Origin: a virus
IMG/VR virus record: IMGVR_UViG_3300001679_000002
Span: 1 to 43,711 of that record
Strand: one strand, 5' to 3'
Length of the DNA stretch: 43,711 nt
The position numbers and the translations under genes are program-made. Below, piece after piece: positions 16,148 through 34,264 of this stretch. Within the stretch, counting starts at the first letter, position 1; each line of letters starts with the position of its first letter. The notes below the pieces were generated by a model. It had not been told where the DNA came from. It made no database searches and saw only the letters and a list, made by a program, of their open reading frames with translations.

Positions 16148-16714
16148 TTACACCTCAAGCGCTAGCTGGTCGGGCTTTTTAGTGATAAGGCTTAAGTCTG
16201 GCTGCATATCGCCAATCAAGTCGCTTAAGTGTAAAAGCCGTGCTTCCAGCACTTTATACACCATGGCGTTTTTGGTGCTGGCCAACTGCGACGCTATAGC
16301 AACAATGGTTTTGGTAATAGCCAGAATTTGTGACGTGGTCATATCGGCACGTTTGCGTGTGGCCTCTGAGTAGTGAAACACAAATTTGGCTACCGCTTCT
16401 TTCATCGCTTTCGCTTTTGGCTGAGCCGACTCCATGACGATCAACAAAAAACCGATGGGATGGTACACCCGAGTCTGGTAATTTTTGCCGTCAGTGGTCG
16501 TCAAACTGACGACCACTGAATAGTTTTTTATGTACTCGTTGCGAGAAATTAGCTTCGAAATAGCCTTTTTTGGCTCTAAATACCCCAGCCAATCAGCAAT
16601 AGAAATGCCAGTTGCATGGGGAACATTGTCAATCATTAACGTTTGAGATAAGGCGATATCGCCCCATTGAAAAGCGTCAAGGCTGTCAGGGGTGTTGTTT
16701 TGTAGATAAGTCAT
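16148..16714 (-). CDS. BRO-N/Ant-like antirepressor A
   Basis: 188 residues. The N-terminal part (about 20-120) has a BRO-N-like layout: ISIADWLGYLEPKKAISKLI, a strand with TRVYHPIGFLLIVMES, then AKAMKEAVAKFVFHY. The C-terminal helical tail ends TKKPDQLALEV, resembling the tails of the proteins at 32097 and 32916 (KK-x-x-QL). Such proteins often act as antirepressors or DNA-binding regulators. The gene lies within the late region but has its own promoter, leader and terminator, so it behaves like a moron. CAGGAG lies six bases before the ATG and is part of a complementary RNA element. Confidence 0.7.
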   Translation of the reverse strand: MTYLQNNTPDSLDAFQWGDIALSQTLMIDNVPHATGISIADWLGYLEPKKAISKLISRNEYIKNYSVVVSLTTTDGKNYQTRVYHPIGFLLIVMESAQPKAKAMKEAVAKFVFHYSEATRKRADMTTSQILAITKTIVAIASQLASTKNAMVYKVLEARLLHLSDLIGDMQPDLSLITKKPDQLALEV

Positions 16715-16931
16715 GGAAGACTCCTGTTTGCTATTTTGAGATTAAGACTTGGGTGTCAGGAGGCTCAAAACCTGCAAACAGACAGGCGGGCTTATTCCCC
16801 AAAAAGGGTATTGTATTCACCGCCCTCCCGACATAGTAAGGATATCAGCTTTGTGCCATAAATAGCAGGCACAAAAAAACCGCATGCTGACGGGGCGGAA
16901 ATCCGCTGTTTGAAGAGGTTTTGAGTCCTCA
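16715..16931 (-). promoter_or_regulatory. structured RNA leader A (C4-like candidate)
   Basis: On the transcript: element 1 (16928-16906), a GC hairpin with GCGGTTTTTTTGTGCC (16883-16868, terminator-like), a conserved core with AATACAATACCC (minus strand of 16806-16824), element 2 (16781-16764) and element 3 (16740-16724) next to the ribosome site. Element 2 is complementary both to element 1 (7 plus 10 bp) and to element 3 (8 plus 7 bp), giving two exclusive structures. Leader B keeps the layout with different pairing sequences. Confidence 0.65.
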
Positions 16932-32096: not shown

Positions 32097-32648
32097 CTAC
32101 ACCCCTAGTTCAAGCTGGCTTGTTTTTTTACCCAGCAGTGCAACATCTGGCATAGGCTCGCCAAGTAAGTTGCACACATTACGTAAACTGGTGATATACG
32201 CTGCTTTAGCAAATTCATCACGGCAATTCACTAATTCCTGCAACAGCTTGATTTTCTGATAACGAAGGGTGTTCAGTTCTTTGATAGGAATATTGCCGTA
32301 ATAACCCTGCTGCTTAATAGCAGGAAGCACTTCTTCACAAACCCATTGCGTAAATTTAACCGCTTCTAGCTTACTTGATCTAAAAGCAAGCATGAATAAA
32401 GCTGGTTCATTTATAAAAATAGTCTCTTGAGTACCAGAAGGTGTTGCAGAAAGTGCAATAGCTCGCCACTTTTCAGGTATGTTTTTGAGGGATAAATTAC
32501 CTCTCCATGTCATTTCAAGCGCTGTGACTACATCTTTAGCACCAAAAAACACATGACCGTTTTCGTCAATGGCTGTGCGAATTTCTGTGCTTGAAAAAGA
32601 GAATGGGTTATTTGTTGCCTGTGAAGGCATAAGAACTGTGTTAGTCAT
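32097..32648 (-). CDS. BRO-N family antirepressor B
   Basis: 183 residues. BRO-N domain (about 12-110): FSFSSTEIRTAIDENGHVFFGAKDVVTALEM, then LINEPALFMLAFRS-like and KFTQWVCEEVLPAIKQQGYYG, all hallmark blocks. A helical C-terminus contains SLRNVCNLLGEPMP and ends KKTSQLELGV; both features recur in the protein at 32916. Likely DNA-binding regulator or antirepressor of lysogeny. AGGTG lies before the ATG, next to RNA element 3. Confidence 0.85.
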   Translation of the reverse strand: MTNTVLMPSQATNNPFSFSSTEIRTAIDENGHVFFGAKDVVTALEMTWRGNLSLKNIPEKWRAIALSATPSGTQETIFINEPALFMLAFRSSKLEAVKFTQWVCEEVLPAIKQQGYYGNIPIKELNTLRYQKIKLLQELVNCRDEFAKAAYITSLRNVCNLLGEPMPDVALLGKKTSQLELGV

Positions 32649-32861
32649 GATATGACACCTTTTGATTTAAGTAGTATTAAAGCCACCATTGGGTGGCGAG
32701 TCTCAACTAAAGCTCAAAAGAAGCTCCGGGCCTATTTCCCTCACGGGTATTGTATTACGCCTCTCAACTCGCCATAGATAGAATTATGGCGCGCGACTGC
32801 TTTACAGGCACAAAAAAACCGCAAAGGCTAACGGGTGCGGATTACCGCTTTTGATTTTAGT
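32649..32861 (-). promoter_or_regulatory. structured RNA leader B (C4-like candidate)
   Basis: Same order as leader A. Element 1 (32861-32848) and element 3 (32672-32659) are near-identical (13/14), and element 2 (32720-32706) is complementary to both. A conserved terminator-like GCGGTTTTTTTGTGCC (32822-32807) and core AATACAATACCC (minus strand of 32745-32761) are shared with leader A. Inverted ACAGGCAC/GTGCCTGT (32804-32811, 32860-32867) enclose the 5' part. A hairpin GCCACC-attg-GGTGGC lies between elements 2 and 3. Confidence 0.65.
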
Positions 32862-32868
32862 GCCTGTA

Positions 32869-32897
32869 AAATTACCCCGTTATTCACGGGGTGTCAA
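32869..32897 (-). promoter_or_regulatory. sigma70-like promoter of cassette B with operator-like spacer
   Basis: Minus strand TTGACA, 17 bases, TAATTT. The spacer is itself a perfect inverted repeat (ACCCCGT / ACGGGGT, 32874-32892), which could be an operator or the terminator of the upstream BRO gene. Predicted RNA start at the 5' end of element 1. Confidence 0.55.
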
Positions 32898-32915: not shown

Positions 32916-33467
32916 TTAAATATCGAATGCGAGTTGTTCAACTTTCTTACCGATTTTACTTGTGGCTGGCATTGGTTCGCCGAGTAGATTGCATACATTC
33001 CTAAGGCTGTCTAACACCGCTTCAAACGAAAACTGGTCACGACAATGGTTAAGCTGCTGAATTAACCTTAGCTTCTGCTCCCTATATTTAAATTGTTGAC
33101 CTTCAGTAAGGTTCCCGTAATAGCCTTGCCGCCGAAGTGTTGGCACCACATCTTCGAATAACCAATCAGTAAATTTTTCTGCGTTGGGTTTATTCGAGCG
33201 AGTTGCAATAACATATACAGCGGCTTCATGAACAAAAATGGTTTCTTTTTCGCCAAAGCTGGTAGTGCGATAGACTACCAGCTGCCACTTTTTCCGCACG
33301 TTTTTAAGACTTCTTGCACCGTTCCAGCAGATATCTAATGCTTTAAACACATCTTTAGCACAGAAAAATGCTTCGCCATTCTCGGCTGTAGCGGTTCTCA
33401 CTTCGCTATCTATAAATAAAAAAGGGTTTTTAACTTCGTTTATTGGCATAAATATTTGGTCGTTCAT
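32916..33467 (-). CDS. BRO-N family antirepressor-like protein C
   Basis: 183 residues, same length as antirepressor B and clearly paralogous: NPFLFIDSEVRTATAENGEAFFCAKDVFKALDI, TIFVHEAAVYVIATRS, WLFEDVVPTLRRQGYYGN, and the shared SLRNVCNLLGEPMP. It lacks the 59-residue partner and its leader is of another type (33468-33721). AGGAA lies before the ATG. Probably a regulator with different target or timing. Confidence 0.85.
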   Translation of the reverse strand: MNDQIFMPINEVKNPFLFIDSEVRTATAENGEAFFCAKDVFKALDICWNGARSLKNVRKKWQLVVYRTTSFGEKETIFVHEAAVYVIATRSNKPNAEKFTDWLFEDVVPTLRRQGYYGNLTEGQQFKYREQKLRLIQQLNHCRDQFSFEAVLDSLRNVCNLLGEPMPATSKIGKKVEQLAFDI

Positions 33468-33721
33468 AGTTTATTCCTGGTGTTAATTTCGACGGACTTA
33501 AGGCCGTTGCATTGAATTATTCGCACCCTTAAAGGTGCGAAGTTTCCGGTCCCGCACTCACTTTTGGTGTTTCGTGGCGGGTTTAGAACCCTTTAAAGGG
33601 TTCTTTTTCCGGAGCAACCCGCCATTTCACAGCCCGAGTTCCTGGTTAGGACCTCTTAAGAGGTCCTGTTAAGACAGATACCCCCCTTAAGGGGGTCAGT
33701 TTGTTGGTTACGAGCGTAATT
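33468..33721 (-). promoter_or_regulatory. leader C with a chain of TTAA-centred hairpins
   Basis: No gene. Palindromes centred on TTAA at 33492-33507 (one mismatch), 33521-33540, 33586-33603 (18 bp, perfect), 33648-33667 (20 bp, perfect) and 33682-33695; a sixth copy lies inside the upstream gene (34062-34077). The third is nested inside a 9-bp stem TGGCGGGTT / AACCCGCCA (33575-33583, 33616-33624). In RNA each would be a stem with a UUAA loop. ACCAGGAA near the ribosome site is repeated upstream. Confidence 0.6.
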
Positions 33722-34264
33722 TCACACATCCATACCCAGTTGCTGATTGACTGGCAAAGATAAACCAAACTCGGCATTTATCTCTTTAGTGCATTCAGCC
33801 CTGAGTGCAGGGTCTTTAATTTTGTCCAATTTAGTTAATGCACTGAATTTGTCGCTTATCTGTGCCCGCAGTGCTTTGCCCACCTTTTCGTACTCATGAA
33901 TCACCTGATCCCACTCTTCATGCTTAGCTTCAAGCCAATCTGCAGCACTATGATTTCCATTGACACGTACCCGAGTAGGGTCGATTGTATTCATAAACGC
34001 TTCAACACGGTCCAGCCTGATACAGATGTGACTCTTAACCCCTGATTCTGGAGTAGTATCCCCCCCCTTAAGGGGGGTCAGTTTTATACCTAAACGCCTA
34101 TATAAATAGGTCCCCTCACAGATTTTCCGGTTCAGTGTTTTCCAGTTGAGCCCAATTTCGTCACTTATTGGCTTGAGCTGGACGCGCGCAAAACCATCAT
34201 CGCAATCAATAACTGGCAACTCTTTGCTTCCGAAGGTAATAATACTTTTTACTAATTTGGTCAT
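33722..34264 (-). CDS. P22_AR_N-type phage antirepressor-like protein
   Basis: 180 residues. VIDCDDGFARVQLKPISDEIGLNWKTLNRKI matches the N-terminal antirepressor domain, as does CIRLDRVEAFMNTIDPTRVRV followed by a helical WLEAKHEEWDQVIHEYEK. It ends NQQLGMDV. A loop between the two blocks is coded by a C8/G6 TTAA palindrome (TPLKGGD), also found in leader C, which looks like an inserted or regulatory hairpin. Ribosome site AGGAACTAACA. Confidence 0.75.
   Translation of the reverse strand: MTKLVKSIITFGSKELPVIDCDDGFARVQLKPISDEIGLNWKTLNRKICEGTYLYRRLGIKLTPLKGGDTTPESGVKSHICIRLDRVEAFMNTIDPTRVRVNGNHSAADWLEAKHEEWDQVIHEYEKVGKALRAQISDKFSALTKLDKIKDPALRAECTKEINAEFGLSLPVNQQLGMDV

Follow-up and report, generated by a model that had tools for sequence, protein, structure and literature searches.

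A leader with an sRNA-Xcc1-type core upstream of a phage antirepressor gene is probably a C4-type antisense-RNA control region

The window analysed here is a 43,711-nt stretch of viral DNA (IMG/VR record IMGVR_UViG_3300001679_000002). On its minus strand a leader, called leader B, precedes a gene for a Bro-N protein whose product matches PF02498 (E 6e-16) and the PHROG family 'anti-repressor Ant' (E 7e-26). The parts of the locus, in the order of the minus strand, are as follows.

32892–32897, minus strand: putative -35 element TTGACA of the leader B promoter, read from the sequence
32875–32891, no strand assigned: palindrome CCCCGTGAATAACGGGG, candidate operator, filling the 17-nt promoter spacer
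32869–32874, minus strand: weak, presumed -10-like element TAATTT, read from the sequence
32848–32861, minus strand: segment 1, ACTAAAATCAAAAG, upstream target of the predicted antisense RNA, at the transcript 5′ end; a1 ACTAAA (32861–32856) and b1 TCAAAAG (32854–32848)
32812–32848, minus strand: attenuator-like element GCGG-UAAU-CCGC-N14-GCGG-U7, from the sequence and its alternative folds
32687–32773, minus strand: predicted sRNA-Xcc1/C4-like antisense RNA core (RF02221) with stem P1, P2 with AATACAATACCC, P3, junction and 3′ CCACCC
32706–32720, minus strand: segment 2, CTTTTGAGCTTTAGT, the P3 loop and junction side of the core; b′ CTTTTGA (P3 loop, 32720–32714) and a′ TTTAGT (P3/junction, 32711–32706)
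32659–32672, minus strand: segment 3, ACTTAAATCAAAAG, overlapping the Shine-Dalgarno (SD) sequence AAAGG of the antirepressor gene; a2 ACTTAAA and b2 TCAAAAG (32665–32659)
32097–32648, minus strand: Bro-N antirepressor gene downstream of leader B, 183 aa (PF02498, PHROG)

The original prediction had proposed three complementary segments in this leader, and both their positions on the minus strand and their complementarity can be read directly from the sequence. Each segment has two parts, an outer one (ACTAAA/TTTAGT/ACTTAAA), which carries one bulged base in segment 3, and an inner 7-mer (TCAAAAG/CTTTTGA/TCAAAAG). In the attenuator-like element, the first G of GCGG is also the last base of b1, and CCGC is able to pair with either GCGG. 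Judged from these alternative folds, pairing at b1 would favour the terminator form. An automatic scan of leader B reported no promoter and no terminator, the former because the -10 is weak and the latter because a 4-bp terminator lies below the scan threshold. The examined stretch covers the expected position of the -35 element in 55 of the 110 relatives described below; most of these have TTGAC 41–57 nt 5′ of site 1. No further match of the same kind as the palindrome CCCCGTGAATAACGGGG occurs in the window. In L009, a relative, this position is taken by a different palindrome, so the spacer palindrome could be an operator for a repressor, with a specificity of its own.

Several other features lie nearby. 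A second Bro-N antirepressor-like gene (32916–33467) is located directly upstream of leader B without an sRNA-Xcc1 leader of its own, and a P22_AR_N gene (33722–34264) lies further upstream. Around the leader of this second Bro-N gene and inside the P22_AR_N reading frame, five perfect palindromes of 14–22 nt, all centred on TTAA and with unrelated G+C arms, occur within 557 bases (33520–34077) and constitute nearly all the perfect palindromes of that length in the window. Among 351 fetched loci the cluster recurs only in a near-identical contig (L039) and in L250, which is the window's own sequence. A HicB-like antitoxin gene (PF15919, 31217–31495) lies close to the integrase.

Elsewhere in the window a second leader, leader A, repeats the plan of leader B in different letters.

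16906–16925, minus strand: segment 1 of leader A; a1 CTCAAAACCT (16925–16916) and b1 CAAACAG (16912–16906)
16747–16832, minus strand: leader A core, sRNA-Xcc1 (RF02221, 67 bits)
16781–16775 and 16770–16764, minus strand: segment 2 parts of leader A, b′ CTGTTTG and a′ TTTTGAG, respectively
16724–16740, minus strand: segment 3 of leader A; a2 CTCAAAA (16740–16734) and b2 CAAACAG (16730–16724), at the SD CAGGAG
16148–16714, minus strand: Bro-N antirepressor-like gene downstream of leader A, 188 aa (PF02498, PHROG)

Segment 1 of leader A is followed by GCGG..CCGC..GCGG-U7, and the downstream gene product matches PF02498 (E 2e-6) and the PHROG anti-repressor family (E 7e-10). Each leader contains one copy of the motif AATACAATACCC, and the window holds no others. 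The segments of leader B had been described as unrelated to those of leader A. This holds with respect to homology, but A-rich words (CAAAA) are common to both.

The core of leader B was aligned by cmscan with the full length of the sRNA-Xcc1 model RF02221 (1–87) at 52.7 bits (E 8e-9), 0.3 bit short of the gathering cut-off of 53 bits. The model consists of a stem P1 enclosing P2, with AAUACAAUACCC as one strand of its internal loop, a hairpin P3 and a 6-nt single-stranded junction. The alignment of leader B shows the P1/P2/P3 fold with the AAUACAAUACCC strand and one pair marked as non-standard. Segment 2 coincides with the P3 loop and the junction side, exactly the parts of the core left free to pair. 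The models for C4 (RF01695) and isrK (RF01394) gave no match in leader A or leader B at E values up to 10. Membership of leader B in RF01695 is therefore rejected, and the leader is named C4-type rather than a member of that family. In Rfam, sRNA-Xcc1 belongs to no clan, and neither the a/b pairing nor a relationship with C4 is recorded there. A sample of 369 genomes from one class contains RF02221 in 26. The RNA is known from Xanthomonas as a discrete 88-nt species with mapped ends (PMC2996969); in the EHEC strain EDL933 it is 89 nt long and abundant, and is only very sparsely covered by ribosomes (PMC5331693).

For leader B alone, the double 7-nt match has a joint p of about 0.002 in dinucleotide shuffles, which is only moderately unlikely, while for leader A none of 5000 dinucleotide shuffles reaches its double match. 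Chance complementarity in A-rich leaders could be read from the figure for leader B, and the comparison of homologues decides the matter. The homologues were collected with patterns that fix none of the three segments. One set was found with only the terminator and AATACAATACCC fixed and 40–70 free bases in between, and the other with only AATACAATACCC and the following GGGGAATA or GGGAAATA. The parts of each leader were located with a hairpin parser instead of a covariance model from an alignment; a model built from a plain MAFFT alignment kept only 3 pairs, owing to misalignment of P1 and P3, and was discarded. Because duplexfold also pairs bases of the P3 stem and the flanks, its duplex energies gave no clean distinction between own and foreign sites, and the comparison was based on run lengths against permuted controls.

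Among 212 non-identical cores, 114 (75 distinct loops) have a complement of the P3 loop of at least 7 nt both upstream and downstream, while in controls that set a loop against the flanks of another leader a match of 7 nt is reached in about 3% of draws on the upstream side and 5% on the downstream side. A nonredundant set of 110 leaders matching at least 6 nt at both expected positions contains 101 different loops. Within this set the junction finds a match of at least 5 nt just 5′ of site 1 in 96 leaders and just 5′ of site 3 in 83, against about 14% and 19%, respectively, under permutation. The loop and both target sites thus vary together across homologues, as the prediction that compensated change in three segments reflects RNA pairing had anticipated. 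In 77 of the 110 leaders the first G of the GCGG stem is also the last base of the upstream site. The downstream part b2 mostly ends 7–12 nt before the start codon, with an SD-like triplet in the site or the next 5 nt in 104.

The sharpest test of pairing comes from the closest relatives of leader B, in which three distant sites have switched together. L009, L018 and L016 are nearly identical to leader B through the terminator and core and carry TATACAAG/CTTGTATA/TATACAAG, where leader B and L030 carry TCAAAAG/CTTTTGA/TCAAAAG. Since the loop and sites covary in about 100 specificities beyond the permuted controls, and switch in concert in these relatives, chance complementarity is refuted and can practically be dismissed. 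For the same reason each leader is taken to have its own specificity, expressed by the loop, the junction and both sites.

Leaders in which a segment has changed without compensation, named beforehand as the case against pairing, do exist but form a minority. Segment 1 is truly unmatched in L209 and L211, and segment 3 has been lost together with the cargo in L035 and L204; such leaders look like mosaics. When one G-U pair is allowed, with permuted match rates of 9–10% per site, 135 of the 212 cores match both sites, 33 the downstream site only, 23 the upstream site only and 21 neither. Part of the non-matching cores are misparsed hairpins and sequence ends.

The presence of two leaders in one phage had suggested two independent specificities. 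Several cores in one phage are indeed common, with two to five in 24 of the 50 phage records that have a core. A core and its own sites reach a summed match of at least 14 in 43 of 60 copies, as against 7 of 96 ordered pairs of different copies within one record, which is the background level (6%) seen between unrelated phages. For leaders A and B themselves, however, functional independence is not clean as judged from their letters. Core A has only 6-nt runs with the sites of leader B, but core B has 7-nt runs with the outer sites of leader A (CTCAAAA), equal in length to those with its own sites, and the independence of this pair is therefore in question.

The cargo of sRNA-Xcc1 leaders is mostly antirepressors and sometimes SymE toxins. 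The commonest Pfam domains in 115 downstream proteins, several of which may occur in one protein, are Bro-N (35), P22_AR_C (20), pRha (16), KilA-N (15), P22_AR_N (10), AntA (10), SymE (7) and ORF6C (7). The seven leaders followed by SymE toxin genes (L040, L043, L047, L048, L049, L053 and L055) all have both target sites. They agree with the published Xanthomonas integron cassette composed of sRNA-Xcc1 and symE, whose regulation was called divergent (PMC12444791). By eye, several flanks of the SymE loci have GTTAGGC-like ends typical of integron attC sites. Other arrangements also occur. Two cores lie about 245 nt apart on one strand in L028 (1896–2145) and L085 (7043–7286), where the first core has a different loop and no gene of its own, and in L201 the core is followed by another promoter in place of a gene. 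These tandem or detached cores are possibly cargo-less immunity RNAs.

Taken together, leader B is very probably a C4-type antisense-RNA control region, an immunity circuit, for the phage antirepressor; we put the probability at about 85%. Part for part it can be equated with a C4 locus having an sRNA-Xcc1-type RNA, because its plan matches those of the P1 and Gifsy-1 loci, and we further conclude that sRNA-Xcc1 is likely a C4-like antisense RNA. By analogy with P1 C4, P4 CI and Gifsy-1, the circuit would involve processing, translational repression and an effect on termination. The start of transcription would lie a short way 5′ of segment 1. RNA that reads through the compact terminator would be cleaved at the foot of stem P1, with RNase P as the probable enzyme, yielding an RNA of about 87 nt with the sRNA-Xcc1 fold. 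The 88-nt and 89-nt RNAs mentioned above (PMC2996969, PMC5331693) support such processing, and the stem P1 with its 5′ GG and 3′ CCACCC appears compatible with it. The P3 loop (b′) and the junction (a′) would then pair with segment 3 over the ribosome-binding site, so that translation of the antirepressor would be blocked and the lysogen kept quiet. This repression at segment 3 is the best-supported step on the analogy with C4, a processed RNA that represses antirepressor translation in trans (PMC5320573). The same b′ and a′ would also pair with segment 1 in nascent leaders, probably favouring the terminator form and giving negative feedback. Attenuation at segment 1, as by P4 CI at seqA in the published summary, is suggested because blocking the first GCGG would free CCGC for the terminator strand. 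Some observations speak against the C4-type reading. The own matches of leader B are only 7 nt and a2 is imperfect; in silico the fold of the unprocessed transcript is ambiguous, segments 1 and 3 both competing for segment 2; the Rfam C4 model has no match in the leader; some relatives have only one of the two sites; and a1/b1 of P1 are annotated as targets only 'putatively'.

For segment 1, attenuation competes with activation of the IsrK kind. In the latter, a short RNA ending at the U tract and containing segment 1 would act in trans as an anti-antisense RNA, pairing with segment 2, freeing segment 3 and turning the antirepressor on, so that segment 1 would be the activator. Short IsrK of Gifsy-1, from a locus that Rfam identifies as a C4 locus, activates anrP translation in trans (PMC4825925), and in folding calculations segment 2 of leader A folds strongly onto segment 3 in cis and hides the SD. 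Covariation of segments 1 and 2 is also demanded by such activation, yet it is not specific, since attenuation predicts the same, and the counterpart site in P4, seqA, serves termination by the CI RNA according to the summary in PMC4825925. We regard activation as possible if doubtful, and the two can coexist. Folding calculations in which full readthrough transcripts pair segments 1–2 and 2–3 in cis would also suit a pure cis attenuator or riboregulator, in which all pairing of the segments is confined to a single transcript and no RNA is set free to act in trans. This is quite unlikely, as small RNAs of this family have been found as discrete, abundant species (PMC2996969, PMC5331693) and the homologous C4 is a processed RNA acting in trans (PMC5320573).

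A host role has also been suggested for Xanthomonas and Xylella (PMC12189769, PMC12444791), and the Xylella copies of sRNA-Xcc1 have been discussed as virulence or vesicle RNAs (PMC12189769). That sRNA-Xcc1 is primarily a regulator of host virulence with many chromosomal or plant targets, the phage leaders being incidental, is very improbable. Most loci have, within one and the same leader, sites that match both specificity parts, and the closest gene generally codes for an antirepressor or SymE. The virulence role is thus largely refuted for loci with both sites, though it could hold for cargo-less copies.

The C4-type reading would provide a testable function for sRNA-Xcc1, an RNA discussed in recent papers as a virulence RNA. 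Its predicted target is the ribosome-binding site that follows it at a distance of a few dozen bases, and this would also explain its position before symE in integron cassettes. The 7–9-nt loop together with the junction would allow a prediction of whether one prophage can silence the antirepressor of another. More tentatively, and in our view rather improbably, the C4-type immunity RNAs may include sRNA-Xcc1 as a second branch, highly diverse and with interchangeable specificities numbering in the hundreds. Cargo-less copies (the tandem ones of L028 and L085, the detached one of L201 and, by extension, five clustered Xylella copies) might then be kept as RNAs acting in trans to silence the antirepressors or toxins that other phages and mobile elements carry, together forming a superinfection-immunity repertoire encoded in RNA. 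A literature search found no paper linking sRNA-Xcc1 with antirepressors or C4; most subscription journals were outside the search, and earlier recognition is possible.

Among known systems, the C4 locus of P1/P7 (RF01695; targets RF03163) has the same plan as leader B, running from a promoter through a1/b1, GCGG..CCGC..GCGG with a U tract and the processed RNA to a2/b2 at a ribosome-binding site and the antirepressor operon. The P1 record is annotated in the order a1, b1 ('putative' target sites), C4 RNA, a2/b2 at the icd ribosome-binding site, and ant; segment 1 of leader B lies at the place of a1/b1. Upstream of P1 C4 the sequence reads TTGACAG..GTTAGTG-CGG-ACAA-CCGC-N14-GCGG-TATTTTT, with b′ CACTAAC in the P3 loop and a′ CTGTCAA in the junction. 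On this locus Rfam reports C4 and c4-a1b1, and isrK below the cut-off. RF01695 and RF02221 have a common topology, P1[P2 P3 junction], whereas the core of leader B differs from P1 C4 in its RF02221 sequence, in a P2 with the AATACAATACCC/AAUA internal loop and in a stem P1 of 9 bp instead of 17. The antirepressor follows leader B directly, while P1 has the icd reading frame before ant. The Gifsy-1 IsrK locus (RF01394), on which Rfam finds c4-a1b1, isrK and C4 upstream of an antirepressor-like gene, similarly combines a terminated leader RNA and a readthrough transcript with an antirepressor and, downstream of the leader RNA, STnc1160, an RNA of about 80 nt. It differs in that its core is RF01695, a short orf45 intervenes and the short RNA was published as an activator. 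The P4 CI RNA (seqA/seqB/seqC), compared here by its description in PMC4825925, is likewise a single processed RNA that has complementary sites on either side of it in the transcript from which it derives, but it is described as ending transcription of replication genes prematurely, and no antirepressor is involved. The sRNA-Xcc1 model covers the cores of both leaders over its whole length. The papers on sRNA-Xcc1 consulted here describe no targets within its leader; such predicted targets are present in leaders A and B. P1 C4, Gifsy IsrK, P4 CI and sRNA-Xcc1 would thereby be joined as one architectural kind.
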